Below, one piece after another: positions 9,566 through 24,417 of a stretch of DNA of 64,000 bases. Under the pieces are notes generated by a model that did not search any database, was not told the origin of the DNA, and saw only the letters and a list, made by a program, of their open reading frames with translations. The translations under genes and the position numbers were made by a program. The stretch is from assembly GCA_015709695.1 (NCBI GenBank), contig CP054183.1, positions 1,972,992 through 2,036,991 of the forward strand. The letters are read 5' to 3'. Every line of letters starts with the position of its first letter. Position 1 is the stretch's first letter. This DNA is from Gammaproteobacteria bacterium. GTDB lineage: Bacteria; Pseudomonadota; Gammaproteobacteria; Steroidobacterales; GCA-2729495.

Positions 9566-11896
9566 TCAGAACCGCCAGGCCACGCCGAGGTTCGGGATCA
9601 GGCGCGGCCAGTAATCGACGTCGCGATCCAGCGTCACAGCGGATCCGCTGCCCTGGACCTCGTAGCTGGTGCAGCAGGGATTGCGCCGGGCCAGTGCGTT
9701 GGTCAGTTCGAAGAACGCCTCCAGCGTGCTGGCCGGCAGCGCGAAGCGGCGCAGCACGCGGAAGTCGACGCTGTTGTAGTGGCTGAAGCGCACCGCATTG
9801 CGCGGGCCGACGTCGGCGATGGCGAGGCCGGTGTCCGGATCGGTGGCGAGGCCCAGCGTGGTGGTGGGCCAGCCGGTGTGGTAGCTGTCGGTCACGGTGA
9901 ACTCCCAGTGCCGGCCGGCATAGCGCAACCCCGCATTGACGCTGTGGCGCTGGTCCCAGCTGCGCGGCACCTCGCGGCCATCGATGTCGTCGGTGACCCG
10001 CGACCAGGCGTAGCCCAGCCACCAGGACCAGGGCCCGTCGCCGCGCCCGCGCAGCAGGGCCTCCACGCCACGCGCCCGGCTCGCCTCGGGCGCCACCCGC
10101 ACACGGTCGGGCTGCAGCTCCGGCAACAGCTGCAGCGGATCGAACAGGTTCTCGAAATGCGGGCTGACGTGATCGTAGTCCTTGGTGTAGGCCTCGATGC
10201 GCAGGTCCAGCCCGTCGGCCAGCGCCTGCTCGAGGCTGACGATCAGCTGATCCGCCCGCTGCGGCTCGTGGAAGGTTTCCACGCCATCCTCGACCTGCAG
10301 CTCGTTGACCGCCTGGGACTGCCAGAACCGGCCCCAGGCCAGGCGCAGGCGGCTGCGCGGCGAGAGGTCGTACAGCAGGTTGATGCGCGGGGAGAATTCC
10401 TCGGGTCCGCCCGCATCGTCGTAGGTCTGGTCATCCCAGCGCAGGCCGGCTTCGGCGCTCAGCCGCCCGGTCAGCCGCAGGCGGCCGGTGGCATAGAGCG
10501 CGGCCTGGTGGCCTTCGGGCGAGGGCCGCAGATCGCGCGCCACGCTGCTGCCGGCATCGCCCGGGAAGGGCCAGCCGGGCAGGTAGCTCACCTCGCTGCG
10601 GTAGCGGTACTTGCCGTGGGATTCGCGGTACTCGGCACCGAAGCGGCTGTAGAGACGGTCACCGTGGTGCTCGACATCGAGGCGGGCCATCACCACGTCG
10701 AGGTCGCGGTCGTCCTCCAGCCAGCCGAGCTGCTGGCCGGGCTGGTCCAGCGTGCCGGAGCGGCGGCTCTCGATATGGGTGAGCGCCAGCAGCAGCCGGC
10801 TCGACAGCGCATCGGCCCAGTCCTGCTGCCAGCCGGTCCAGACATACTGGTTCTGGTACCTGGCCGAGGTCCGCTCGCTGTGATCCGAGGTGTTGCCGCT
10901 GATTTCGTCGCTGGATGACAGCAGGCCGGCGAGCAGCGTGGTGCCGGGGGCGACAGCGTAGCTCACCCGGCCGAGCAGGTCGTGATACTCGACGCTGCCG
11001 ACATCGCCTTCGGCGAAATCGGCGAGCAGCCCCAGGTTGCTGCGCCGGGCCGAGGCCAGCCACTGGCCGCGCCCGTCGTCGAAGCGGCCCGCGCTCAGCC
11101 CGTTCAGGTGGAACAGCGACAGGCCCAGCACGGTGTAGCGGTCCTGCGGCGGCGTCAGCGGCGTGATGTCGATGACGCCGCTCATGCGGTCGCCGTGGTT
11201 GACGGTGAAGCCGCCGGAGGAGACATCGATGGCGCCGATGGCCTCGGCATCGAACACGCTCACCGGCGCCAGGAAGTTCTTCAGGTGGAAGGGCTCGTTC
11301 AACGGCAGGCCGTCGAACACCATCAGCACCTCGTCGTATTCGCCACCGCGCAGGTGCGTCTGCGCCGAGAGCCCCGAGGAAGCCGAGCCGGGCAGCCGCT
11401 GCACGGCGCGCAGCGGCTCGTCGGCCAGCTTCGGCAGGGCCTGCAGGTCCGCCTGGCTGAGGAACACATGCGGATCGGCCTCGCTGCCCGCCAGGGCGTA
11501 GCGGCTGGTGGTGACGACGATCTCCGACAGCGCGGGCACCGCCGCGGCCGGCTCAGCCGCGGGTGGAGCCGCCGAGGCGCCCGCTGCCACGCCCGGCCCG
11601 CGGGTCACCGCCCAGGCGCCGGCACCGACATCGACCAGCACCAGGCCATGCGCCGCGAGCACCTCGCGCGCCGCGGCGATGCCGCCGCCGGCGGGCTCCG
11701 CCAGCACCCGCAGCTGCGGCGTCACCAGCTCGCTGCTGAAGATGATGTTGAGGCCCTGCGCCTGGAACTCGCGCAGCACGTCCTGCAACGGCCGTCCGGC
11801 CAGCGGCGCGCCCAGCGCCAGCGAAACCCACAGCAGCGTCGCCGCCAGCAGGGCGGTGCGGGCGCGCCCCGCAGCCACGCAAGAAGGAATCCCCAT
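9566..11896 (-). CDS. TonB-dependent outer-membrane receptor with STN signalling domain
   Basis: A 776-residue outer-membrane receptor. A signal peptide (ending near ALGAPLAG) is followed by an STN domain (about 30-100; RPLQDVLREFQAQGLNIIFSS), a Pro/Ala linker, the plug domain (about 125-260; EIVVTTSRYAL is a TonB-box-like start) and a 22-strand-type barrel ending in an aromatic residue (GVAWRF). STN domains in such receptors contact a FecR-type anti-sigma factor. Upstream on the same strand lie fecR and an ECF sigma gene, so this is a trans-envelope signalling cassette. The ligand is unknown; no siderophore or sugar enzyme is next to it. It is separated from fecR by about 184 bp, so it may have its own sigma-dependent promoter. 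Confidence 0.9.
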   Translation of the reverse strand: MGIPSCVAAGRARTALLAATLLWVSLALGAPLAGRPLQDVLREFQAQGLNIIFSSELVTPQLRVLAEPAGGGIAAAREVLAAHGLVLVDVGAGAWAVTRGPGVAAGASAAPPAAEPAAAVPALSEIVVTTSRYALAGSEADPHVFLSQADLQALPKLADEPLRAVQRLPGSASSGLSAQTHLRGGEYDEVLMVFDGLPLNEPFHLKNFLAPVSVFDAEAIGAIDVSSGGFTVNHGDRMSGVIDITPLTPPQDRYTVLGLSLFHLNGLSAGRFDDGRGQWLASARRSNLGLLADFAEGDVGSVEYHDLLGRVSYAVAPGTTLLAGLLSSSDEISGNTSDHSERTSARYQNQYVWTGWQQDWADALSSRLLLALTHIESRRSGTLDQPGQQLGWLEDDRDLDVVMARLDVEHHGDRLYSRFGAEYRESHGKYRYRSEVSYLPGWPFPGDAGSSVARDLRPSPEGHQAALYATGRLRLTGRLSAEAGLRWDDQTYDDAGGPEEFSPRINLLYDLSPRSRLRLAWGRFWQSQAVNELQVEDGVETFHEPQRADQLIVSLEQALADGLDLRIEAYTKDYDHVSPHFENLFDPLQLLPELQPDRVRVAPEASRARGVEALLRGRGDGPWSWWLGYAWSRVTDDIDGREVPRSWDQRHSVNAGLRYAGRHWEFTVTDSYHTGWPTTTLGLATDPDTGLAIADVGPRNAVRFSHYNSVDFRVLRRFALPASTLEAFFELTNALARRNPCCTSYEVQGSGSAVTLDRDVDYWPRLIPNLGVAWRF

Positions 11897-12080
11897 GTCC
11901 CTGCCGGTTCCCGGCCCAGCGCCAGTCGCTGCGGCGCAAGTCTAGCCGAGTTCCTGCAGCGGACCGCAGCGTGCAGAAAAAAGGGCGGCGATCCAGGGGG
12001 AGAAGATTGCCGCCCACAATATCGGGCGAAGGTGGAGCCACACCGTCAGGCTGCTCCGGGGATCGGGGAGTCGCCGCCGG

Positions 12081-13088
12081 TCAATCGCCCGAATTCGAAC
12101 GCACGTGCAGCTGGCCCGGCACCTCGCTGTACTGCAGCCCCGTGGTCACCAGCACCGCCGCCAGCGCCTGCTCGGGGCTGAGGCCCTGCACCGAGCCGTG
12201 CAGCACCACCTCGCGCGCCGCCTGCTCGGCGGCCGGGGAATCGAACACCAGGTCGCGGCCGGTCTCGCGGCTCACCCAGCCGAGGAACTCGATCAGCGGC
12301 CGGTCCTGGATGTCGTACAGCGGCGCCACCGCGTGCACCCAGGCCCAGTCGGCACCCGAGCGCGACACGGGCTCGCGGCTCACCGTGCCATCCGCGCCGA
12401 GCGAGACCTGCTCGCCCGCCACGCCCTGCAGCACGCGGTCGCCGGAGAGGAGCCGTACCTGGCCCTCGCGCACCCGCAGTCGCAGGCCCTGGTCGGAAAC
12501 ACGCGTCTCGTACTGCGTGCCGAGGTGCTCGACGCTGCCGAAACGGGTGGCGACCACCAGCCGGGACGCTGCCGTGCCCGGCGGCCCGGAATCCAGGTAG
12601 AGCGCGCCGTGCCGGAGCTCGACACGATCGGCGGCGACGATGGCGAGTTCGCTGTGCTGGTCCAGGCGCAGGCTGGCGCCGCCGAGTTCCAGCGCCAGGC
12701 GGCCACCGGCGCCGGTGCGCAGGTCGCTGCCGGCCCGCAGGGGCTGTCCCGCACGGGCACCGACCCGCGTGGCGAGCCAGCCGGCCGCGGTGAAACCGGC
12801 CGGGCCTTCGACGCGCGCCACGGTCGCCAGCACCGGACCCGAGGGCAGCAGGCGCGGCACCACCACCAGCACGGCGAGGCCCGCCACTGCCGCTGCAGCC
12901 GCCAGCGTCCAGCGCTGGCGCCGGCGGCGCGCGCGCTGCGCGACGACGGCTCGCCACTCGACCTCCACCACGCTGCGCACCGCCTCGCGCAGGCGCGCGT
13001 CGGGCTGCGGCCGGGCACCGGCCTGGCGCACCAGGCCGCCCAGGCTGCTGTCGTCGGCTTCGCGATCGATGTGCCGTCGCTCACTCAT
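12081..13088 (-). CDS. FecR-family anti-sigma factor
   Basis: A 335-residue protein with a cytoplasmic N-terminus (1-59), one membrane helix (about 60-80, AAAAAVAGLAVLVVV), a periplasmic FecR domain (about 95-240; LRAGSDLRTGAGGRLAL, HLGTQYETRV) and a C-terminal STN-like segment (about 265-335; RPLIEFLGWVSRETGRDLVF). This is the FecR/PupR layout, in which the C-terminal domain receives the signal from the receptor's own STN domain. The ATG at 13088 lies 4 bp after the sigma-factor stop and follows a GGAGGATGA ribosome site. It should hold the neighbouring sigma factor inactive until the receptor is occupied. Confidence 0.88.
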   Translation of the reverse strand: MSERRHIDREADDSSLGGLVRQAGARPQPDARLREAVRSVVEVEWRAVVAQRARRRRQRWTLAAAAAVAGLAVLVVVPRLLPSGPVLATVARVEGPAGFTAAGWLATRVGARAGQPLRAGSDLRTGAGGRLALELGGASLRLDQHSELAIVAADRVELRHGALYLDSGPPGTAASRLVVATRFGSVEHLGTQYETRVSDQGLRLRVREGQVRLLSGDRVLQGVAGEQVSLGADGTVSREPVSRSGADWAWVHAVAPLYDIQDRPLIEFLGWVSRETGRDLVFDSPAAEQAAREVVLHGSVQGLSPEQALAAVLVTTGLQYSEVPGQLHVRSNSGD

Positions 13089-13092
13089 GGGT

Positions 13093-13743
13093 TCATCCTC
13101 CGGGATTCTCGCCGGCGATGATCTCCGCTGCCCGCGCGGCGCCGAAGACCTGCTCGATGGCGTCGCGGAATGCCACCCGGGCCCGCGCCAGCAGCGATTG
13201 CGCCGCCGTGGTGCCCACGCCCATGCGGGCGCCGATCTCCTCCACCGACAGGCCCTCGACGTACTTCCACTCCAGCGCATCGCCGTAGCGCGCCGGCAGC
13301 CGGTCCAGCACCGCGCGCACCAGCGCGGCGGTCTGCCCCCGGCCGTAGTGCTGCTCGGGCCGCTCCTCGTCCGGGGCCTGGATGGCATCGAGCGCCGCCT
13401 GCACCGCCGGGCTGTCGTCGATCAGCACCACGCGCTCGGTGTGGCGGCGGTTCTCCCGCAGGTAATCGGCGATCTGGTGGCGGCAAATCTGGCAGATCCA
13501 GGTAAACAAGGCAGCTTCCCCGCGAAAGGTATCGAGCCTGCGCATCACCTTGCACAGGGTGGCCTGCACCACTTCCTGGGCAACGTCCGCATTGCCGTTG
13601 AGCCGCGGCAGGGCGAAGCGGTACAAGCGGGCGAAATACTCGTTGAAGAACTCACTGAAGGCCCGCTCGTCGCCAGCCAGCATGCGACGCAGCAGTTGCT
13701 GTTCATCCTGCAAGTCGTGCTCCACTCGCCGTCCTGCTGTCAT
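13093..13743 (-). CDS. ECF-type RNA polymerase sigma factor
   Basis: A 216-residue sigma-70-family protein. Region 2 covers FSEFFNEYFARLYRFALPRL...DVAQEVVQATLCKVMRRLDTFRGEAALFTWICQICRHQIADYL. Region 4 is LPARYGDALEWKYVEGLSVEEIGARMGVGTTAAQSLLARARVAFR cut in the usual HTH place. No region 3 or 1.1 is present, so it is ECF. Start codons at 13743 (ATG) or 13761 (GTG) are possible; I use the ATG. It heads the sigma-fecR-receptor cassette and is divergent from the hemolysin-family operon across about 175 bp, so their promoters share that interval. Confidence 0.88.
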   Translation of the reverse strand: MTAGRRVEHDLQDEQQLLRRMLAGDERAFSEFFNEYFARLYRFALPRLNGNADVAQEVVQATLCKVMRRLDTFRGEAALFTWICQICRHQIADYLRENRRHTERVVLIDDSPAVQAALDAIQAPDEERPEQHYGRGQTAALVRAVLDRLPARYGDALEWKYVEGLSVEEIGARMGVGTTAAQSLLARARVAFRDAIEQVFGAARAAEIIAGENPGG

Positions 13744-13918
13744 GGGTTTAGACGATGGCACCGCGGCGGATCAACCGCCGCACAGGTGCTCCGGCGGCAT
13801 CATTACATAGTCCGGCGCGACGGTTGCGCGGGGCCGATTGATCACTCTGGCTGTGGACGTCAAAAGCCCGAAGGATCGCAATGCCGGCGCCAGCACCGCT
13901 CTGGCATCGAAGGGATTC

Positions 13919-14566
13919 ATGCTGGACTTTCAAGACGTTGCCGAACCCCCGCCCGCCCCGGAGCCGATCTGGGCCCTGCGGAGCGCCCTCCCTCCCTCTC
14001 CGGGCGCCTTCCTCTCCGGACCACAGGCTGCCGACCGCGCCGAACTGGAAGCCTTCGTCGGCGCCGCCTTTCGCCGGCAGCACGGGGCCACGGTGCGCGC
14101 CTACCTGCCGGTGCTGGTCGGCCTGCGCGATGCCGCCGGCGGGCTGGCCGGCGTGGCCGGCTACCGGCCCGGCGCCGAAGGACCGCTGTATCTCGAGCAG
14201 TACCTGGCCTGGCCGGTCGAGGACATCATCGCCAGCCGGTTCGGCGCCGGCGCCATTGCCCGGACGGCGATCGCCGAGATCGGCAACTTCGCCTGCCGCG
14301 ACTGCGCCACCGCCGCGACCATGGTGGGCGTGCTGGCCAAACTGCTGCGCGAGCGGCGCCACGACTGGGTGGTGTTCACGGCCACCCGCACGGTGCGCGG
14401 CATCATGCACCACATGGGCCTGCGCCTGACCGAGCTCGCACTGGCGCAGCGCAGCCAGCTCGTCGCCGCCGACGACTGGGGCCGCTATTACGACAAGGAC
14501 CCGCGCGTGATGCTCGGTTACGTGCCCTCATGGGACCCGGCGATCGGGCGTACCGGCCGCAGCTGA
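13919..14566 (+). CDS. thermostable-hemolysin family protein (predicted acyl/acetyltransferase fold)
   Basis: A protein of about 215 residues matching the thermostable hemolysin family: a central VAGYRPGAEGPLYLEQYL segment, then RTAIAEIGNFACRDCATAATM, WVVFTATRTVRGIMHHMGL and WGRYYDKDPRVMLGYVP at the C-terminus. The family is named after a Vibrio delta-hemolysin, but its fold is thought to be related to GNAT/autoinducer-synthase-like acyltransferases, so an acyl-transfer role is plausible. There is no signal peptide. The ATG at 13919 is chosen over a TTG at 13838. It is the first gene of a five-gene operon and is followed after 2 bp by the AMP-ligase gene, implying joint action on an acyl substrate. 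Confidence 0.8.
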   Translation: MLDFQDVAEPPPAPEPIWALRSALPPSPGAFLSGPQAADRAELEAFVGAAFRRQHGATVRAYLPVLVGLRDAAGGLAGVAGYRPGAEGPLYLEQYLAWPVEDIIASRFGAGAIARTAIAEIGNFACRDCATAATMVGVLAKLLRERRHDWVVFTATRTVRGIMHHMGLRLTELALAQRSQLVAADDWGRYYDKDPRVMLGYVPSWDPAIGRTGRS

Positions 14567-14568
14567 CG

Positions 14569-16071
14569 ATGCGCAACCTGGCCGATGCCCTGCACCGCGC
14601 GCTGGCGGGCTTTCCGCCCGGCGCGACGGCGCTCATCGATGCCCGCGGCACGCTCGACGCCCGCGAGCTGCTCGACGAGGTTTCGCGCGAAAGCCGCTGG
14701 CTCGCCGCCTCTGGTGCGCAGCGCTTCGGCCTGCTGGCCGACAACGGGCGGGGCTGGGCGATCACCGATCTCGCCCTGCTCACCGCGGGCCGGGCCATGG
14801 TTCCCCTGCCGCAGCACTTCGGGGCCCGGCAACTGCGCCATGCGCTGGACAGCGCCGGCGTGGATGCCGTGCTCAGCGACGAGCCGGGCCGCCTGCTGGA
14901 GCTCGAAGCCGGCTTCGCCATCCGCGGGCAGCGCGCGGGCACCGGCCTGACGCTGCTCACGCGGGAGCGGGACCGGCTGGCAGCGGTCGCCTTGCCGCCC
15001 GGCACGCTCAAGGTCACCTACACCTCGGGCAGCACCGCCGAACCGAAGGGGGTCTGCCTGACCGGCGAGCACCTCGCCGCGGTGGCGGCTTCCATTGCCG
15101 GCGTCGGCCGCCGGCTCGGCCTGCGCCGCCACCTCTGCGTGCTGCCGCTGGCCACGCTGCTGGAAAATGTCGCTGGCCTGCATGCGGCCTGGCTCGCCGG
15201 GGCCTGCTGCGACCTCGGCGCGGCCGCGGCCGGCGCCATCGCCCGGGGCTCGCTCACTCCCGGCATCCTGCTGGCGGAGATCGACCGCGCGGCGCCCGAG
15301 AGCCTGATCCTGGTCCCGGAGCTGTTGCGCATCCTGGTCGCGGCCACCGGACAGGGCTGGACCGCGGCCGGCGCGAAGTTCATCGCCGTGGGCGGCGCCC
15401 GGGTCGCTCCAGGGCTGCTGCAGCAGGCGACGGAGGCCGGGCTGCCGGTGTTCGAGGGCTACGGCCTGAGCGAATGCGGCTCGGTGGTCTGCCTCAACCT
15501 GCCGGGCGCCTCGCGCCCCGGCACGGCGGGCCGGCCGCTGCCGCACGCCGCGGTGCGCGTCGATGCGCGCGGCGAGATCCACGTCGCCGGCAGCATCATG
15601 GCCGGCTACGTCGGTGATCGCGCCGCGCCGGCCGAGGTGGCCACCGGCGACCTCGGCGAACTGGACGAGGCGGGTTACCTGCGCGTCAGCGGCCGCATCA
15701 AGAACCAGATCATCACCTCGCTCGGGCGCAACCTGTCGCCGGAATGGATCGAGAGTGAACTGTGCGCCGAGCCGGCCATCGGCCAGGCGGTGGTCTTCGG
15801 CGAGGCGCGCGAGCGCCTGGTGGCGCTGCTGGCGCCGGCGCACGCGGGCCTGCCCGCGGCGGCGGTGGCGGCGGCCGTCGAACGCGCCAACCTGCGCCTG
15901 CCCGCCTACGCGCGGGTCTCCCGCCACCACCTGCTGCGCGAGCCGCTCAGCGCAGCGGCCGGGCTGCTCACCGCCAACGGGCGCCCGCGGCGCGAACGCA
16001 TCCTCGCGCAGCATGGCGCCATCATCGAATCACTCTGCCTGGAGGATGAACGTGCCCACCTCACTGCCTGA
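14569..16071 (+). CDS. AMP-dependent acyl ligase (ANL superfamily)
   Basis: A 500-residue adenylate-forming enzyme. The phosphate-binding loop TYTSGSTAEPKG is at about 150-161, the A5 motif GYGLSECGS near 305, and A7/A8 TGDLGELDEAGYLRVSGRIKN near 365-380. The A10 motif reads LLTANGRPRR, so the usual catalytic Lys of GK is Arg472. It is shorter than typical long-chain fatty acyl-CoA synthetases (about 550-600), with a trimmed N-terminal domain. It probably activates a fatty or other carboxylic acid as acyl-AMP, then acyl-CoA, for the next enzymes of the operon. The ATG lies 2 bp after the hemolysin-family stop, and the 3' end overlaps the next gene. Confidence 0.85.
   Translation: MRNLADALHRALAGFPPGATALIDARGTLDARELLDEVSRESRWLAASGAQRFGLLADNGRGWAITDLALLTAGRAMVPLPQHFGARQLRHALDSAGVDAVLSDEPGRLLELEAGFAIRGQRAGTGLTLLTRERDRLAAVALPPGTLKVTYTSGSTAEPKGVCLTGEHLAAVAASIAGVGRRLGLRRHLCVLPLATLLENVAGLHAAWLAGACCDLGAAAAGAIARGSLTPGILLAEIDRAAPESLILVPELLRILVAATGQGWTAAGAKFIAVGGARVAPGLLQQATEAGLPVFEGYGLSECGSVVCLNLPGASRPGTAGRPLPHAAVRVDARGEIHVAGSIMAGYVGDRAAPAEVATGDLGELDEAGYLRVSGRIKNQIITSLGRNLSPEWIESELCAEPAIGQAVVFGEARERLVALLAPAHAGLPAAAVAAAVERANLRLPAYARVSRHHLLREPLSAAAGLLTANGRPRRERILAQHGAIIESLCLEDERAHLTA
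16041..16054 (+). promoter_or_regulatory. ribosome binding site deciding a GTG start
   Basis: GGAGG at 16041-16045 directly abuts an ATG (16046) with no spacer, but is six bases from an in-frame GTG at 16052. The spacing favours the GTG as the real start of the diiron-protein gene. The site lies inside the last codons of the ligase gene, so translation of the two is probably coupled. Confidence 0.55.
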
Positions 16072-16747
16072 ACGACTCGGCCTGGCGACGCAGCGGGAGC
16101 GCGAGTTCCTGCTGTCGGCGGGCCCGATCCGCGACGCGCTGGCCGGCGTCATCACCCTGCCCCGCTACCTGGCCTTCCTCGGCGAGGCGTACCAGCACGT
16201 GCGCCACACGGTGCCGCTGCTGATGGCCGCCGGCAGCCGGCTGCCGCCGCGCCTCGGCTGGCTGCAATCGCGGGTGCTCCACTACATCGAGGAGGAAGCC
16301 GGCCACGACGCCTGGATCCTCGACGACATCCGCACCGCCGGCGGCGATGCGCAGGCGGTGCACGATGCCTGGCCCCACCCGGCGACCGACGCGCTGGTGG
16401 CCCGCGTCTACGACCAGGTGCAGCGGCGCAACCCCGTGGGCATCTTCGGCATGGTGCATGTGCTGGAAGGCACCAGTGCCGCGCTGGCGCTGCAGGCCGC
16501 CGACTGCATCCAGGCGACGCTCGGCCTGCCCGACAGCGCCTTCCGCTACCTGCGCAGCCATGGCGAACTCGACCGCGAGCACGTCCGCGACCTGGAGGCG
16601 ATCCTCGTCCGCCTCGGCGACGCCGACGACCAGGCGGCCGTCATCGGCTGCGCGCGCAGCGTGTACTGGCTCTACGGCCACATGTTCCGGGCCCTGGACG
16701 AGATCCGGGCGCCCATGGCGGCCGCGCCACGCGAGGCGAGCGCATGA
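16052..16747 (+). CDS. heme-oxygenase-like diiron oxidase (UndA/TenA-like fold)
   Basis: An all-helical protein of about 231 residues of the 'iron-containing redox enzyme' family. Counting from the ATG at 16046, potential ligands are Glu84-x2-His87, Glu141 (VLEGTS), and His172-x3-Asp176-x2-His179. This six-residue set and spacing match the heme-oxygenase-like diiron oxidases such as UndA (which makes 1-undecene from lauric acid) and SznF. It is therefore likely an oxygen-using non-heme iron enzyme rather than a TenA-type thiaminase, which is how such genes are often mislabelled. The substrate is probably the acyl group activated by the upstream ligase. The start is GTG 16052 by ribosome-site spacing, and its 5' end overlaps the ligase gene by about 20 bp. 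Confidence 0.8.
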   Translation: MPTSLPERLGLATQREREFLLSAGPIRDALAGVITLPRYLAFLGEAYQHVRHTVPLLMAAGSRLPPRLGWLQSRVLHYIEEEAGHDAWILDDIRTAGGDAQAVHDAWPHPATDALVARVYDQVQRRNPVGIFGMVHVLEGTSAALALQAADCIQATLGLPDSAFRYLRSHGELDREHVRDLEAILVRLGDADDQAAVIGCARSVYWLYGHMFRALDEIRAPMAAAPREASA

Positions 16748-17592
16748 ACCTCGGCCAGGCACGGGTGCTGGTCACCGGCGGTGCCGGCGGCATCGGCTCG
16801 GCCATCGCCGCGGAACTGCTGGCCGCCGGCGCCCGGGTGATGCTCGCCGACGTGAACGGCGAGGCGCTCGATGGCGTCGCCGGCAGACTCGGCGCGGCCG
16901 ACGGCTGCCTCGCCACGGCGGTCGCCGATCTCACCGACACGGCGAGCCGCGCCAGGCTCTGCCAGCAGGCCATCGCCTGGGGCGTGAACGTCGTGGTGAA
17001 CAACGCCGGCGTCAGCCACTTCGGCCTGCACGAGGAGCTGACGCCCGCGCAGCACGCGCAGACGCTGTCCATCAACATCCTGGCACCCATGCTGCTGGTG
17101 GCCGAGCTGCTGCCCCACCTGAAGCAGCAACCGCAGGCGCAGCTGCTCAACATGGGCTCGGTGTTCGGCCATATCGGCTACCCGGGCTACGCCGCCTACT
17201 CGGCCAGCAAGTTCGCGCTGCGCGGCTTCAGCGAGGCGCTGCGCCGCGAGCTGGCGGACAGCCGCGTGCGGGTGCATTACCTGGCGCCGCGCGCCACGCG
17301 CACGCCGCTGAATTCCGCGGCGGTGACCCGCATGAACGCCGAGCTGCACGTGGCCATGGACCCGCCGGCAGTCGTCGCCCGCGCCGTGCGCCGCATCCTG
17401 CAGCGCGAAATCCCGAGCGCGGTGATCGGCTGGCCCGAGAAGCTTTTCGCGCGCGTGAATGCGCTCCTGCCTGGCGTGGTGGATGGCGCCATCCGCCGGC
17501 AACTGCCCGTGATCCGCCGCCATGCGCGCCGGCAGGACACGCCATCCATGGCCGCCACGGCGGCCCCGAACCCCGGGAGTCACCCCGCATGA
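16744..17592 (+). CDS. SDR-family oxidoreductase of the hemolysin/diiron operon
   Basis: A 282-residue classical short-chain dehydrogenase: TGGAGGIG at 11-18, NNAG near 88, MGS followed by YAAYSASK (Tyr-x3-Lys) near 140-150. A long C-terminal extension with GWPEKLFARVNALLPGVVDG is reminiscent of SDRs that act on lipid-like substrates. It overlaps the diiron-protein gene by 4 bp (ATGA) and the following TPR gene by 4 bp (ATGA), so it is translationally coupled to both. It would reduce or oxidise a keto/hydroxy group made by the upstream enzymes; the exact reaction is unknown. Confidence 0.85.
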   Translation: MNLGQARVLVTGGAGGIGSAIAAELLAAGARVMLADVNGEALDGVAGRLGAADGCLATAVADLTDTASRARLCQQAIAWGVNVVVNNAGVSHFGLHEELTPAQHAQTLSINILAPMLLVAELLPHLKQQPQAQLLNMGSVFGHIGYPGYAAYSASKFALRGFSEALRRELADSRVRVHYLAPRATRTPLNSAAVTRMNAELHVAMDPPAVVARAVRRILQREIPSAVIGWPEKLFARVNALLPGVVDGAIRRQLPVIRRHARRQDTPSMAATAAPNPGSHPA

Positions 17593-18254
17593 ACCCTCGC
17601 CCGCTCCTCGCCCTCGCCCTGCTGGCCCTTGCCGCGATGCTGGTCCTGCCCGGGGGCGCTGCGCGCGCCGACGCCGCCTTCGACGCCGAATTCGACGCCG
17701 TGCGCGACGCCTGGGCCACCGCTCGTTACCAGTTGCCCGCAGACCAGCAGGAGGCGGCGTTCAAGCAGCTGATGGCGCGGTCGGCGGCGTTCGCGGACCA
17801 CAACCCGCAGCGACCCGAGGCCCTGATCTGGGACGGCATCGTGCAGAGCACCTACGCCGGGGTGAATGGCGGCCTCGGCGCCCTCGGCCCTGCCCGGCGT
17901 GCGAAGGCCCGCTTCGAGGCGGCGCTGGCCATCGACGAGCGCGCGCTCGATGGCTCGGCCTGTACCAGCCTCGGCACCCTGTACCACAAGGTGCCGGGCT
18001 GGCCCATCGGCTTCGGCAATGACGACAAGGCGCGCCAGTACCTGGAGAAGGCGCTGGCAATCAGTCCCCGGGGCATAGACCCGAACTACTTCTACGGCGA
18101 GTTCCTCTACGACGAGGGTGACTATGCCCAGGCGCTCCGCTACCTGGAGGTCGCGCAGCAGGCGCCCCCGCGGCCTGGCCGCGAGCTGGCCGATTCGGGG
18201 CGCCAGGCCGAGATCAGCGCGCTCATCGGCAAGGTGCGCAAGAAACTGCACTGA
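17589..18254 (+). CDS. secreted TPR protein, last gene of the five-gene operon
   Basis: A 221-residue protein with a signal peptide (LALALLALAAMLVLPGGAARA) and helical TPR-like repeats (RAKARFEAALAIDE, DDKARQYLEKALAI, YAQALRYLEVA). A conserved block LDGSACTSLGTLYHKVPGWPIGFG resembles the TatT-like periplasmic TPR proteins that accompany some TRAP-type or lipid-handling genes. It probably acts as a periplasmic scaffold or lipid-binding partner of the pathway. The ATG overlaps the SDR stop. It converges on tamB. Confidence 0.7.
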   Translation: MNPRPLLALALLALAAMLVLPGGAARADAAFDAEFDAVRDAWATARYQLPADQQEAAFKQLMARSAAFADHNPQRPEALIWDGIVQSTYAGVNGGLGALGPARRAKARFEAALAIDERALDGSACTSLGTLYHKVPGWPIGFGNDDKARQYLEKALAISPRGIDPNYFYGEFLYDEGDYAQALRYLEVAQQAPPRPGRELADSGRQAEISALIGKVRKKLH

Positions 18255-18275: not shown

Positions 18276-21200
18276 TCAGTCGCGCTCCACCGAATAGACC
18301 AGGTCGAGCGACTGGTCCTCGCCGCTCGAGGCCTCGATGCTGAGATGGCGGTTGAGGCGGTAGCGCGCCATCACGGTACCGATCTGGTTGAACAGCCCGT
18401 AGCTGAAGCGCAGGTAGAGGTCGGAACCCAGCTGCTTGCCGGCCACCACCTGGGCCTCGTTCAGCGCCCCGCCCTCCACGCCGAGCTCATCGAGCGTCAC
18501 GGCACTGCCGATCGCCTGCGTCAGCGGCGAGGTCTGCTGGATGCCCAGCGCCAGCGCCGCGCCGGCCACCGCCGACTGGTCGTTCTGGCTGCCGCCCTGC
18601 ATGGGATGGCCGGCGATGAGATAGGAGATCGCATCCGCCTGCGACATGGCCGGGTCGGAGAACACCTGGCTCTGCGGCCGGCTCGCCGTGCCCGACAGCT
18701 GGATGCCGGCGGTGACGCTGCGCCCCTCGTAGTCCACGCGCCGGCTGGCGCGGATATCCACCGCCGGATCGTCCAGCGGCCCGGAGAAGCCCAGCGTGCC
18801 GCGCTCGATGACCAGCTCCTTGCCATAGGCGCCGAAGCGGCCCTCCTTCAGATGCAGCACGCCGAAGCCGCGCGGCGTGCCATCCGGCGCCTGGGAGACC
18901 TTGAGGGTGCCTTCCACCAGGGTGTCGAGGCCGAAGCCCTCGATGTGCACCTTGCGGCCGAGCTCGATCTCGATCTCCCCGCCGATGACGGTGCCGATCG
19001 CGGATGCATCGGCGCGCGGCGGCCGGTCGCGCACCACGGCGTCGCGCGACGGCGATACCGCACTCTGCGGCAGCTCCCGCACCACGATCTCCGCCTGCGG
19101 GATGACGATGCGGCCCGAGCCGGCCAGGCTGCCGGGCGCGAAGTCCAGCCGCAGCTCCGGTGATACCTGCACATGGCGGTCGGGCAGGCGCACCGCATCC
19201 ACGCGCTCGCCGCGCACGCGCAGCCAGCCCCGCGGCCCGCCCGCGGCCAGCGGCTGCAGCTCGCCATCGATGCCGAGCCTGCCGCCGGCCATGGCACTGC
19301 CGTCGATGCGCAGCGTCTCGCTGCCATCACCCAGTAGCGCCAGCTCGATGGCCTCGAGCTTCACGCCGAGATCCGGCAGGGCGACCGTGCCGTCACGCAG
19401 GCGTGCGGCGCCGGCAAGCCGCGGCGCGCGCAGACTGCCGCTCGCCTGGACATCGAGCGTCACCCGTCCCGTCACCTCCGACATATCGACGTCGCCGGCC
19501 AGCAGCGGCACCAGCGGCGCGATGTCCGGGAGGCCACCGGTGAGCTGTGCCTCCAGCGGAGCGTCGACGCCCGGCAGCCCCAGCATGCGCGCCTGGGCGG
19601 AGAGCTGCAGGCCCTCCTGGCCCTGGATGCTGAAGCGCAGCTCTCCGGCCTGCGGCGCCAGGCTGGCGTCGGCCTCGACCACCGGCAGCGTGGTGACCAG
19701 CGGCTCGTCGCCGCCGGTGTAGTAGACCGTGGTGCCCTGCTGCCGCCAGTGCAGCTCGGCGCGGGCGCCGTCCGCCGCCAGGCTCGCGAGCAGATCCGCC
19801 TGCGCGCGGCCGGTGACGGCCAGGTCCTCGCCCAGCCAGCGGTTGAAGCGCGCCAGGTCCAGCTCGCGCAGCCCGGCCGCAAGCACCGCCTCGCGCGGCG
19901 TCCAGTGCGCGCGGCTGATGCAGAGCGAGCTGGGCGCCTGCTCCCAGCAATGGGCGCCGACTTCGGCCTGGGTCGCGGCGAGCACCAGCTCGGGTTCGCC
20001 CGCGAGGCGCCAGGTTCCGGCCGCATCGGCGGTGATCGATGCGGCCTCGAGCCGGTGGCGCAGCGCCGTGCCGTCCCAGCGCCCCTCGCTGGCCAGCGTC
20101 AGCGCCACCGGACCGCCGCGCAATGCCGCGTGCAGCCGGTGCGCATCCAGCGTGCCATCGACCCGGGCCTCGAGGTCGCCCAGCGCCTGGTCGCCGCTGC
20201 GGATGCCGCGGGCGTCGAGGTCCAGGTCCGTCTGCTGGCGGCGATCGACCTGCAGCCGCAGCTCGGCCTCGGCCACGCTGTTCCCTTCGAACACCAGCGA
20301 GCGCGCCTGCGCCTGCAGGCTGACCACCGGACGCAGCCGCGTGCCCGCCAGGGTCGCATGGCCCGCCAGCCGGCCCGCGAGCCCCGGCCAGAGCAGCGCC
20401 AGGTCCGGTGCATCGAACGCGAAGCGGCCGGCCAGCCGCGTGCCGATGCTGCCGTGGGCATCGAGGTGATTGGGGCCGGCACGCAGGGCGAGCCTGTCGA
20501 AGCCCAGCGTGCCATCGGCATAGCTCAGCACCCCGGTTCCGGCCAGCGGCCGGCCCATGAGGCGGCCCTGCAGCTGCACGATATCCAGGCGCAGCGGCAG
20601 CTCGGGCGCCATCGCCAGCCGCAACCGGCCGGAGAGGCGGCCATCGAGACCGGGGCGGAAGGCGGCGGTATCCACCTCGCGGGCGATGATGTCCAGGCGC
20701 AGCCGCGGGCCCGCGGCGGCGCCGGCGGCCGGCAGGTCGACGACGCCGCGGGTGGCCAGCCGGCCGCTCGCGCCCTCCATCCTGGCCTGCTCGATGACGA
20801 CCTGGCTGGCGTTGCCATGGGCCCGCGCCGTCGCGGCCAGCGGCGGCAGCAGGGCACCCGCCAGCTGCGCCTGCAGCGTGGCCTGCCAGTCGTCCAGCAC
20901 TCCCGAAAGGCCGAGCTGCCCGGCGCGCGCCTCGACCCGCCCCAGGCCCGGCAGCTCGCGCGCCAGCGACGCCCAGCTCGCGCTGGCCACGAGGCGTGGC
21001 TTCGTCGCCAGGTCATGCAGCGTCGCCAGCACGGTGACCGGCTCCGGCACGCGGATCGCCTGCGCCACCCGCAGCTCGTCGAGGTTGCCCTGCACGGTGC
21101 CCGCACCCGACAGCTGCTGCGCCGGCAGGCTCCAGCCGAGACGCGCCTGCAGCGGCAGCGGCGCCCGCAGCTCCGCCTGGCCGGCCAGCTGCACGACCAG

Positions 21201-21716
21201 GCCGGCGAACTCCCCGCGCGCCTGCTTCAGCAGCAGCTGCGAGCCGCGCAGGCGAGCCGAGGCATGCAGCCCGGTGAGCGTCCAGGATTCATCGCCGCGG
21301 CGAATTTCCAGCGTCGCCACCGCAAGCTGTCGCAGCCGCAGCGGCACCGGCGTGCGCAGTGTGGGCATCAGGAACGGTTCATCCGGGCCGGGCGGGGGCA
21401 GGTCCACCGCCACGCGCCCCGCCGCCAGCCGGTCGGCCTGCAGGCGGCCGCGGAGCAATGCCGACGGGCGCAGCACCAGCTCGAGCTGCTCGACGCGCAC
21501 CGCCAGCCCCCCGGCGCGGATCTCCATGCGCCCGACGCGCAGCCCGCCGGCCAGGCTGCCGTCGACATCCTGCAAGGCCAGCACGCCGCCGCTGAACGCC
21601 TCCGCCCGCTGCGCCAGCCAGCGGGCACCCGCGCTGGTGCCGGTGAGCAGCAGCACGCCGCCGGCCAGCACGGCCACCAGCAGCAGCAACAACGCGGCCA
21701 GCCAGCGGCCGATCAC
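18276..21716 (-). CDS. tamB: TamB, translocation and assembly module inner-membrane component
   Basis: A 1146-residue AsmA-like protein. One N-terminal membrane helix (WLAALLLLLVAVLAGGVLLL) anchors a long repetitive beta-rich groove that spans the periplasm, and the C-terminal DUF490/TamB domain (about 780-1146) ends in FSYGLFNQIGTVMARYRLNRHLSIEASSG. TamB works with TamA in outer-membrane protein assembly and in anterograde phospholipid transport. The start is a GTG at 21714-21716 that overlaps the tamA stop (GTGA), so the two are translationally coupled. Confidence 0.93.
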   Translation of the reverse strand: MIGRWLAALLLLLVAVLAGGVLLLTGTSAGARWLAQRAEAFSGGVLALQDVDGSLAGGLRVGRMEIRAGGLAVRVEQLELVLRPSALLRGRLQADRLAAGRVAVDLPPPGPDEPFLMPTLRTPVPLRLRQLAVATLEIRRGDESWTLTGLHASARLRGSQLLLKQARGEFAGLVVQLAGQAELRAPLPLQARLGWSLPAQQLSGAGTVQGNLDELRVAQAIRVPEPVTVLATLHDLATKPRLVASASWASLARELPGLGRVEARAGQLGLSGVLDDWQATLQAQLAGALLPPLAATARAHGNASQVVIEQARMEGASGRLATRGVVDLPAAGAAAGPRLRLDIIAREVDTAAFRPGLDGRLSGRLRLAMAPELPLRLDIVQLQGRLMGRPLAGTGVLSYADGTLGFDRLALRAGPNHLDAHGSIGTRLAGRFAFDAPDLALLWPGLAGRLAGHATLAGTRLRPVVSLQAQARSLVFEGNSVAEAELRLQVDRRQQTDLDLDARGIRSGDQALGDLEARVDGTLDAHRLHAALRGGPVALTLASEGRWDGTALRHRLEAASITADAAGTWRLAGEPELVLAATQAEVGAHCWEQAPSSLCISRAHWTPREAVLAAGLRELDLARFNRWLGEDLAVTGRAQADLLASLAADGARAELHWRQQGTTVYYTGGDEPLVTTLPVVEADASLAPQAGELRFSIQGQEGLQLSAQARMLGLPGVDAPLEAQLTGGLPDIAPLVPLLAGDVDMSEVTGRVTLDVQASGSLRAPRLAGAARLRDGTVALPDLGVKLEAIELALLGDGSETLRIDGSAMAGGRLGIDGELQPLAAGGPRGWLRVRGERVDAVRLPDRHVQVSPELRLDFAPGSLAGSGRIVIPQAEIVVRELPQSAVSPSRDAVVRDRPPRADASAIGTVIGGEIEIELGRKVHIEGFGLDTLVEGTLKVSQAPDGTPRGFGVLHLKEGRFGAYGKELVIERGTLGFSGPLDDPAVDIRASRRVDYEGRSVTAGIQLSGTASRPQSQVFSDPAMSQADAISYLIAGHPMQGGSQNDQSAVAGAALALGIQQTSPLTQAIGSAVTLDELGVEGGALNEAQVVAGKQLGSDLYLRFSYGLFNQIGTVMARYRLNRHLSIEASSGEDQSLDLVYSVERD

Positions 21717-23449
21717 AGGTCGGGCCCCAGGGTGACGTGCAGGCGCCAGCTGTCCGGGGCATCCTTGTCCAGCGGGACGGCGATGTCGACGCGTATCGGG
21801 CCGAGCGGTGAATACCAGCGCAGGCCGCCGCCGACGCCGGTCTTCAGCGTCAGGCCGGAGAAGTCGTCGAAGGCGTTGCCGGAATCGATGAACGCCGCCA
21901 CCGACCAGTTGCCCCAGACACGCTGGTCCACCTCGGCGCTGCCGACCAGCTTGTGGCTGCCGCCGACCACCAGGCCCTGGTCGTCGGTGGGACCGAGCGA
22001 TTCGTAGTCATAGCCGCGCACGCTGTAGTCGCCGCCGACGAAGTAGCGCACCGAGGCCGGCAGGGTGCGGAACTGGTCCATGAGCGTGGCGCCCGCCTCG
22101 GCGCGCAGCAGCAGGCGCCCGCCCGGCCAGACGGGCACGATCAGCTTGCCGAAGATGTCCGCCTGCAGGAACTCGGAATCCGAGCCGATCAGCTCCGTGG
22201 TGCCGCTGACCTTGAAGCTGAAGCGATGGCCCTTGTCGGGGCGGGTGATGGCCGGGCTGTTCGGGAAGGCATGGGTCCAGCTCAGGCCGGGGATCAGCAG
22301 GAACTCGCGGCTCTTGTCGTCGGCGATGGTGTATTCCTCGACGCTGGCATCGATGAACCGCGTCTCGATCCAGTCCGCGGGACGTCGCCGGAACTCCTTG
22401 AGCCCGATCTTGTAGGTGTCGGCGCGCTTGGACGCGGTGTCCTCGTACTTGAAGCCCGCGTCGATGCTCAGCCACTCGACGCGCGGGTCCCGGCGCGGCA
22501 GCCGATAGCTGACGCCGACGATCGACTCCACTTTCGACAGGTCCATGCTGCTGTCGAACTGGTGGCCGGACTCGTTCAGGCGGCGGTTGGTGTAGCCGGC
22601 GCGGAACTTCAGGCCCTTGTCCGTGGAATAGCCGGTGCCCAGGGTATAGACCTGCCGCTTGGCGGCCGCGAGCGTCACCGAGACGGGCACCGTCAGGTCC
22701 GGCGGTGGCTGGGGGCTGGTGCGCAGGTCCACCGAGGAGAAATAGCCGGTGGCGAGCAGGGCGTTGTAGAAATCGCTGACCTTGGTGCCGTCGTAGGCAT
22801 CGCCGGGCCGGAAATCGACGAAACGCTCGACCAGGTCGGGGCGCACCACGTCCTGGTGGAAGGTCACCGCGCCGAAGTGGTATCGCGGCCCGGAATCGTA
22901 GTGCAGCACGATGTCCGCGGCGTTCTCCCGCGTGTAGATGTCGATGCGGCTCTCGGGAAAGCGGGCGGCGAAGTAGCCGCGCTGCCGGGCCAGGTCACCC
23001 AGGGCCTTCTTCAGGCGCTCGTAGTCGGCATGGTCCAGCTGGTCGCCGGGCGCCAGTTGCCCGGACCTGAGCAGCCGCTGGAATTCCCGGTCGCCGGCCG
23101 CCTCGCCGGTCACCGCCACATCGACCTTGCGCAGCCGCACCGGCTCGCCGGGCTCGATGCCGATGTTCACCAGCCAGCAGCCGGACTTCACGCTGCTGTC
23201 GATGCGGATCGTCGGGTTGTAGTAGCCGTAGGCCTCCAGCGCCTCGCGGATTTCCGGGTCGGCCTTGCGTGTCAGCCGCCGCACCCGCCAGGAGGGCGCA
23301 TCGCAGGCCGTTGCGGCGAGCGTCAGATGCGCCATGACGTTGTCGCGCAGCTTGCCGCGCACGCCGCTGACCTCGACCTTGGCCGGGGCGGCGGTCCAGG
23401 CAAGCAGGAGGCAACAGAAGAAACCGGTGGCGGCTCGCGGCGGAAGCAT
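21713..23449 (-). CDS. tamA: TamA, Omp85-family outer-membrane assembly protein
   Basis: A 578-residue Omp85 protein: signal peptide (FFCCLLLAWTAAPA), three POTRA domains (about 25-260; YGYYNPTIRID, GYFAARFPES, TGYFSSVDLR) and a 16-strand barrel whose conserved motif is VRGYDYESLGP, the TamA form of the Omp85 L6 VRGY element. The last strand ends HVTLGPDL. It partners with TamB, encoded immediately downstream. The frame is open to 23539, but the signal peptide begins at the ATG at 23449. It is divergent from the 297-aa secreted-protein gene across about 75 bp. Confidence 0.93.
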   Translation of the reverse strand: MLPPRAATGFFCCLLLAWTAAPAKVEVSGVRGKLRDNVMAHLTLAATACDAPSWRVRRLTRKADPEIREALEAYGYYNPTIRIDSSVKSGCWLVNIGIEPGEPVRLRKVDVAVTGEAAGDREFQRLLRSGQLAPGDQLDHADYERLKKALGDLARQRGYFAARFPESRIDIYTRENAADIVLHYDSGPRYHFGAVTFHQDVVRPDLVERFVDFRPGDAYDGTKVSDFYNALLATGYFSSVDLRTSPQPPPDLTVPVSVTLAAAKRQVYTLGTGYSTDKGLKFRAGYTNRRLNESGHQFDSSMDLSKVESIVGVSYRLPRRDPRVEWLSIDAGFKYEDTASKRADTYKIGLKEFRRRPADWIETRFIDASVEEYTIADDKSREFLLIPGLSWTHAFPNSPAITRPDKGHRFSFKVSGTTELIGSDSEFLQADIFGKLIVPVWPGGRLLLRAEAGATLMDQFRTLPASVRYFVGGDYSVRGYDYESLGPTDDQGLVVGGSHKLVGSAEVDQRVWGNWSVAAFIDSGNAFDDFSGLTLKTGVGGGLRWYSPLGPIRVDIAVPLDKDAPDSWRLHVTLGPDL

Positions 23450-23523
23450 CTGCAGCCAGCATACCCGCTGGCCCGGCCGCCGACACCGTTGACCCGGCTC
23501 CCACGCTTGGGTTAACTGCCGCC

Positions 23524-24417
23524 ATGATGCACATGTCATCGCGGCCGGCGCGCCTGCTGGCGTGGCTGGGCCTGTTCGCCGCCTCCGCGGCCGGCGCGAA
23601 CACCGTGCCGGGCTGGTCCCGCCTGGAGTTCGTCGCCGCGAAGTTCTTCATGACGGCCCGGGCCGATGTCGAGGTGCGCCGGCTGCCCGCGGCCGAAGTC
23701 ACCCCGGCGCTGCTCGCCACGCCCGAGGGTCGTCCGGTGCAGCCCGGCAGCGAGGTGCTCGAGCTGGTCTACCGGGCGAGCGGCTTCGGCCGCGAATCGG
23801 TCACCACGCTGTGGGCCGACCCGGCCAGCGGCGCCACCCTGCAGAGGACCGAACTCGACAGCGGCAGCCGCCAGCGCTGGCGCAGCTACCGCTTCACCGA
23901 CATCGGCGCCTACCACTTCAGCCGCTGGCCGGCCACCGACGCCGAGAAGCCCTTGCCGCCGGAACGCTGGACCGAGCGCACGCAGGGGTTGCGCGCCTAC
24001 CCCGCCGCGGCCGTGGGCCAGGCCGTGACCGAACCGACCATGCTGCTGTGGCTGGCAGCGGCCGGCGACTACCAGCGCGCCGGCGACCGCGGCGAAGTGC
24101 TGACCTTCTCGCGCAAGCGCGTGAACCGCGTCACCATCGAGGTCACCGGCCGGCGCGCCGTCCGCGTGGACTTCGAGGAACGCTCGGCCACCGGCAGCCG
24201 CCAGAGGAAGGACAGCGTGGATGCGATCGTCATGCGCATCCGCGGCCAGCCCATCGACGCCGGCGCCGATGGCGACGAGGACTTCGAGCTGCTCGGCCTG
24301 CGCGGCGACCTCGAGCTGCTGGTCGATCCGGTCGCCCGGCTGCCGCTGCAACTGAGCGGCAACGTGAAGATCGCCGGCCACGTCACGGCACGCCTGCGCC
24401 GCGCCCGGCTCCGCTGA
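23524..24417 (+). CDS. secreted protein of unknown function, DUF3108-like
   Basis: A 297-residue protein with a signal peptide (LLAWLGLFAASAAGA) and a beta-rich body (ELVYRASGFGRESVTTLWADPASG, VTIEVTGRRAVRVDFEE). The plan of a periplasmic barrel-like protein with ends such as RLPLQLSGNVKIAGHVTARL loosely resembles DUF3108 proteins, which sit near envelope genes, but I cannot confirm the family. The first ATG (23524), or ATGs at 23527 and 23533, could be used. It is divergent from tamA, so it may be expressed with the envelope-assembly genes. Confidence 0.6.
   Translation: MMHMSSRPARLLAWLGLFAASAAGANTVPGWSRLEFVAAKFFMTARADVEVRRLPAAEVTPALLATPEGRPVQPGSEVLELVYRASGFGRESVTTLWADPASGATLQRTELDSGSRQRWRSYRFTDIGAYHFSRWPATDAEKPLPPERWTERTQGLRAYPAAAVGQAVTEPTMLLWLAAAGDYQRAGDRGEVLTFSRKRVNRVTIEVTGRRAVRVDFEERSATGSRQRKDSVDAIVMRIRGQPIDAGADGDEDFELLGLRGDLELLVDPVARLPLQLSGNVKIAGHVTARLRRARLR

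Follow-up and report, generated by a model that had tools for sequence, protein, structure and literature searches.

A thermostable hemolysin operon as a candidate lipid A stress operon in a gammaproteobacterium

In a stretch of 64,000 nucleotides from a Gammaproteobacteria bacterium (contig CP054183.1, positions 1,972,992 to 2,036,991; the whole stretch is called the window here), five tightly packed genes, A to E, begin with a member of the family labelled thermostable hemolysin (T_hemolysin). We propose, with a probability of roughly 0.6, that these genes form a lipid A stress operon of the outer membrane that makes an oxidised N-acyl amphiphilic lipid. The regulatory control of the operon is well supported at the level of sequence, and the regulatory account is internally consistent; we infer all reactions, together with the substrate, product, and transport step, and also that the sigma factor reads these promoters. 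Our confidence in the proposal is slightly higher because the fold comparison of gene A agreed with it. The five genes, in window coordinates and with the basis of each assignment, are:

13919..14566, + strand: gene A, T_hemolysin (PF12261), predicted GNAT-fold N-acyltransferase (Pfam, profile, fold comparison)
14569..16071, + strand: gene B, AMP-dependent (ANL) ligase, with the A10 Lys changed to Arg (Pfam, alignment)
16046..16747, + strand: gene C, haem-oxygenase-like diiron oxidase (HDO, PF14518), with ligands E84, H87, E141, H172, D176, and H179 (Pfam, alignment)
16744..17592, + strand: gene D, short-chain dehydrogenase/reductase (SDR) oxidoreductase of the PRK09072 family, Ser-Tyr-Lys kept (NCBIfam, alignment)
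17589..18254, + strand: gene E, tetratricopeptide repeat (TPR) protein with an N-terminal signal-like stretch (by eye) and a weak resemblance to BstC (Pfam, PDB search)

The gene set, its spread, and its enzymes

A preliminary description of this DNA had reported five packed genes of these families at 13919-18254, and open reading frames, Pfam, and NCBIfam bear this out. A 2-bp gap separates A from B, and C-D and D-E overlap by 4 bp each, as described; the 20-bp overlap it gave for B and C holds only if C starts at 16052, and becomes 26 bp with the ATG at 16046, the start from which the HDO ligands are numbered. Scores exceeded the Pfam cut-offs for T_hemolysin (164.6 against 27 bits), AMP-binding (141.4 against 29.9), Haem_oxygenas_2 (92.9 against 28.9), and adh_short (152.7 against 26.6). 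A single TPR model passed in gene E (27.3 against 25), and NCBIfam assigned gene D to PRK09072 (317.7 against 238). The window's genome is a single contig of 3.1 Mb.

The five families recur together. When 47 loci (L074-L120) were retrieved with their flanks by T_hemolysin alone, 38 held all five, and the association is therefore not one of chance. Six of the 47 come from genomes identical to named loci of the HDO search described below. Two of the complete loci have a displaced gene (D in L078, and a 1.5-kb gap before C in L104). Among the nine incomplete loci, three lie at contig ends (L075, L096, L103), one has TauD in place of C (L119), no oxygenase was found at L108 and no E at L118, and the remainder hold A and E only (L090, L120) or A only (L116). 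The HDO search in named genomes returned 24 loci, 20 of them with the operon neighbours (L022-L041; Gamma-, Beta-, and “Delta”proteobacterial metagenome-assembled genomes, MAGs) and four with the HDO match alone (Streptomyces, Sorangium, and a myxobacterial MAG). T_hemolysin was present in 19/60 close relatives and in 29/274 genomes sampled from the class. Plasmid records with the set come from Vibrio parahaemolyticus (all five genes), Citrobacter, Pantoea, Variovorax, Vibrio sp., Alteromonas, and Pseudoalteromonas.

In a VIA second look at Foldseek candidates, the closest predicted folds to gene A were acyl-homoserine lactone (AHL) synthases and FeeM, well above unrelated folds. Gene A is accordingly modelled with a predicted GNAT fold in the AHL/N-acyl-amino-acid synthase branch. 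It has a remote profile match to PF13444 (Acetyltransf_5, OlsB-ChoA) and no direct Pfam match to that family at E up to 2, and a sequence search of the PDB returned nothing credible (best E 0.3). The window's own genome has no PF13444 and no PF00765 match. Membership of gene A in PF13444 or LuxI was rejected on direct match and motif, though the fold agrees.

Gene B keeps the ANL motifs A3, A5, and A7. In gene C, the six ligands listed in the preliminary description are all present and are kept in 54/55 aligned HDO rows; the exception, L118, is a match without the first two columns. The Ser, Tyr, and Lys of gene D are kept in 55/55. The idea of a biosynthetic operon for activation, transfer, and oxidation, put forward in the same description, gains support from the co-occurrence of the five families and from these conserved ligands, which are consistent with it. 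Its label “UndA-like” for gene C stands for the fold and the ligands and finds no support in sequence kinship: with a profile of 21 HDOs the nearest PDB chains were 3dde (1.1e-23), MboA (7.6e-5), and CT610/CADD (0.0053), and no UndA chain appeared at E up to 1, UndA itself not having been compared directly.

In L032, L036, and a Novosphingobium record (L126), a single reading frame encodes B fused to C, which ties their two steps together. A TauD/TfdA oxygenase lies in the cluster, with no HDO found, in L119, Acinetobacter haemolyticus (L125), Paracoccus (L128), and Streptomyces (L122 and L134). The conserved demand is therefore for an iron oxygenase and not for UndA chemistry. The Paracoccus TauD match (11698-12560 of that locus) is split over two frames, and the gene may be broken. 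We set aside naming the reaction of the TauD protein from its PDB neighbours, the matches being too weak. Gene E is predicted from its N-terminus, by eye, to be exported. Its best natural PDB match is BstC (2.7e-9), behind engineered TPR proteins that score by repetition, and the Novosphingobium copy lies narrowly above the TatT model (26.8 against 26.5). BstC and TatT are lipid-related TPR families.

A sigma factor module and two-component systems

The preliminary description had missed a module with an extracytoplasmic function (ECF) sigma factor and its promoters, which precedes the operon:

9566..11896, - strand: TonB-dependent receptor (Pfam)
12081..13100, - strand: FecR-like protein with a weak C-terminal STN (E 0.012) (Pfam, profile)
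13093..13761, - strand: ECF sigma factor (Pfam, NCBIfam)
13748..13777, - strand: divergent ECF-type promoter of the sigma gene, CGGTTGAT-N15-CGTCTAA (motif search)
13835..13864, + strand: ECF-type promoter of the five-gene operon, CGATTGAT-N15-CGTCAAA (motif search)

The motif CGRTTGAT-N15-CGTCHAA thus occurs twice in the shared intergenic region, one copy facing each operon. This pair provides the only exact matches in the window's genome (shuffles of the window lead one to expect 0.11), and it was found in 15/15 loci of the same arrangement, window included, with a spacer one base shorter in one L076 copy. The FecR-like gene is the only FecR match in the genome. Sequence directly upstream of the TonB receptor gene in the window lacks the motif, and receptor residues 1-112 gave no STN match, the resemblance to STN being by eye only.

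A close form of the motif was found at 40 sites in 11 relatives, with 0 control matches; by hand count, 20 sites lie at the operon and 20 elsewhere in 8 genomes. We examined 19 of the latter (G009:C27 was left out). Their targets are phosphoethanolamine transferases (4), an ArnT-like and an ArnB-like gene (1 each), LtaS-like genes (2), Omp85-type genes (3), GT9 (1), GtrA/GT2 (1, by eye), a two-component pair (1), and, both by eye, small lipoprotein-like genes (2) and other membrane or exported proteins (3). The main assignments hold in Pfam, and as a group the targets are mostly lipid A or envelope enzymes. In the window's genome, the three one-mismatch sites precede an ArnT-like gene, an LtaS-like gene, and a methyltransferase; identities to the targets in relatives are 75 per cent for the ArnT-like gene (G004) and 60 per cent for the LtaS-like gene (G023).

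Other lineages have another regulator beside the operon. At 61 distinct loci, counted after removal of six duplicates, a two-component system lies within 2.5 kb in 29 and the sigma module within 6 kb in 18, and no locus has both. OmpR-type regulators are rare, with 43 across six genomes (about 19 Mb), and the 29 adjacencies, among 43 loci without the sigma module, are therefore not due to chance. PmrA was the best NCBIfam model for 4/4 regulators tested, each scoring below the 330-bit cut-off (190-242). The PmrA box is a YTTAAK repeat (PMC10927774). We predicted this box and then looked for it: an exact copy precedes gene A in 12/19 loci with two-component genes downstream (Markov control mean 0.04, maximum 1), in 5/9 plasmid records, and in 0/14 sigma-type loci. 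By coordinates, 13 of the 14 exact boxes in the 19 downstream-type loci sit near gene A. Across 16 two-component genomes, the strict box occurs at 12 places, spread over 8 genomes. Eight of them precede a T_hemolysin gene, one lies 62 nt before EptA and one 49 nt before an LtaS-like gene, and two are unclear. The two-component pair that the sigma motif precedes lies in relative G003, and its regulator shares 44-52 per cent identity with those beside the operon in six other loci. From the targets common to the sigma motif and the PmrA box, it follows that two unrelated regulators share targets.

Several other features were seen around these loci. Three loci with upstream two-component genes (L098, L100, L102) have no PmrA box and carry other direct repeats, e.g., ATCTTCACGAAATCTTC in L098 and L102. 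Cupredoxin and FTR1-type iron permease genes lie downstream of the two-component genes in Pseudoalteromonas and Alteromonas records (L133, L135), and the families occur in 9 loci. Upstream of the TonB receptor, the sigma-type loci L030, L034, and L035, which have another gene order, have the stretch GAAAACGTTATCAT in common. In relative G007, a TonB receptor with a CarboxypepD_reg domain (L083, 3-2780, - strand) lies apart from sigma and FecR. TamB- and TamA-like genes (named by eye) lie directly 3' of the operon in the window (18276-23539, - strand), and TamB neighbours the operon in 10 loci. The nearby window protein at 23524-24417 resembles an L076 protein by eye only; Pfam gave no match for either.

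Proposed mechanism and alternatives

In the mechanism that we propose, B would activate a fatty acyl chain, A would join it to an amine, C (or the TauD enzyme in other bacteria) would oxidise the chain or the head group, and D would adjust a keto or hydroxy group, while the exported TPR protein E would assist in delivering the product to the envelope. For the window's lineage, we envisage an ECF sigma factor that the FecR-like protein holds in check and that is coupled to the TonB receptor; it would switch on both its own operon and the five-gene operon from the two divergent promoters. Its co-targets in relatives would be phosphoethanolamine transferases, ArnT/ArnB-like enzymes, LtaS-like transferases, and Omp85 proteins, and a PmrA-type two-component system would play the same role in many other lineages. 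The name “haemolysin” would then stem from a detergent-like product rather than from a protein that forms pores. A broader version, to which we give even odds, is that thermostable hemolysin is a new branch of lipid-making N-acyltransferases and the operon a hitherto overlooked part of the lipid A stress response, with control rewired in the window's lineage from a PmrA type to a dedicated ECF sigma factor and the targets (the operon, EptA, and LtaS-like genes) kept.

Several observations weigh against this account. The profile of gene A gave 2.3 per cent against a LuxI set of only 4 sequences. The E-x-x-R motif is incomplete: its Glu is found in 58/58 T_hemolysin rows, and the Arg position holds Asn in 46, His in 5, Ser in 4, and Gly in 3. 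This Arg is important in ChoA and BPSL1375, and with Asn in its place in most rows the chemistry may therefore differ. The A10 catalytic lysine of gene B is Arg in 47/52 relatives and Lys in 2/52, a substitution that is a possible clue to the reaction. The operon has no O-acyltransferase, so a two-chain aminolipid cannot be claimed. On the regulatory side, the ECF motif was found in 0/5 sigma-type loci with another gene order (L030, L034, L035, L037, L126), and in the window's genome a search allowing up to two mismatches stays at control level, with 10 matches against 10. Neither regulator lies nearby in 14/61 loci, several of them at contig ends. The PmrA box was present in 1/7 loci with two-component genes upstream, the strict box was absent from 8/16 genomes, and its reversed control gave 4 places against 12.

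The folds closest to gene A, those of AHL synthases and FeeM, also suit a product that is secreted as an N-acyl signal or surfactant: A would make it as an autoinducer-synthase-like enzyme, and the TonB receptor and FecR, or a histidine kinase, would sense it. The receptor-FecR-sigma and two-component sets are dedicated neighbours, and the genome has one FecR. We consider this unlikely, as the other targets of both regulators are lipid A or envelope enzymes, which fits stress sensing better than a private signal, and the receptor gave no match to an STN signalling domain. Those same shared promoters or boxes, before EptA, ArnT-, ArnB-, and LtaS-like genes, could instead mean that the enzymes build a group on lipid A itself, for example by N-acylating an amino group that comes from ArnT- or EptA-like enzymes. 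EptA and ArnT act outside, whereas A, B, C, and D look cytosolic, and several operon-bearing lineages have no such neighbour, which makes this quite improbable.

A lipid-type metal chelator would account for the adjoining TonB receptor and for the cupredoxin and iron permease genes that follow the two-component genes. However, the iron genes are missing at most loci. Because PmrA-type systems control lipid A in response to ferric iron, the iron link needs no chelator to explain it, and the chance of a chelator seems to us very small. The terminal alkene or similar product that the preliminary description expected from UndA-like fatty acid oxidation would draw on the complete diiron ligand set and the acyl-activating neighbour. 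We found no evidence for an alkene-type product: UndA is absent from the profile search matches, the most constant member of the set is the acyltransferase-fold gene A, and C is replaceable by TauD. The TauD/TfdA replacement in five loci and the link to lipid A enzymes point to an oxidised envelope lipid, and we have dropped the alkene as scarcely probable.

Relation to described systems and significance

Our proposal of a lipid-making stress operon differs from earlier accounts mainly in function. In the Vibrio cholerae dth (delta-thermostable haemolysin) region, T_hemolysin adjoins an AMP ligase (DthC, VCA1110), the same set as here; it is presented there as a haemolysin gene (PMC12208996), whereas we read lipid synthesis and envelope stress. 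A “thermostable hemolysin cluster” is described in Methylophilaceae (PMC10872708). The preliminary description's statement that no pathway is described for this set therefore holds for function, to which no paper in the literature searched assigns a pathway or role, and not for the cluster. Serratia ATCC 39006 or1352-1355 is likewise a single operon with T_hemolysin, an AMP ligase, and an iron oxygenase, but has TauD for the HDO, a Bcr/CflA transporter, and RsmA control, and SDR and TPR genes are not named in the available text (PMC4046660). FeeM, the AHL synthases, and ChoA-OlsB resemble gene A in fold and through the remote PF13444 profile match, and they too have a past “haemolysin” name (PMC5643525, PMC4657338). 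In contrast, A has no PF13444 match and mostly no E-x-x-R Arg, and its operon adds a diiron or TauD oxygenase.

The PmrAB lipid A regulon has in common with this system the YTTAAK-repeat box, present before gene A in two-component lineages, and EptA as a target. An ECF sigma factor replaces PmrA in the window, however, and the operon is not among the PmrA targets in the literature searched. As in FecI-FecR-FecA signalling, the sigma, FecR-like, and TonB receptor genes are consecutive in the window, but the targets here are envelope enzymes and a search for STN on the receptor gave no match. What is new is the functional reading and the regulon; the genes themselves are already known.

The gene set offers a defined operon, a predicted fold, and two independent regulatory signatures. 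If our proposal is true, a family that databases label a toxin and surveys count among virulence genes would be a lipid synthase, an enzyme. A set of genes spread across Gamma-, Beta-, and Alphaproteobacteria and plasmids would gain a testable function, and there may be a new membrane lipid beside the known lipid A responses. The operon would also serve as a clear example of a rewired regulon, in which a two-component system and an ECF sigma factor have changed places.
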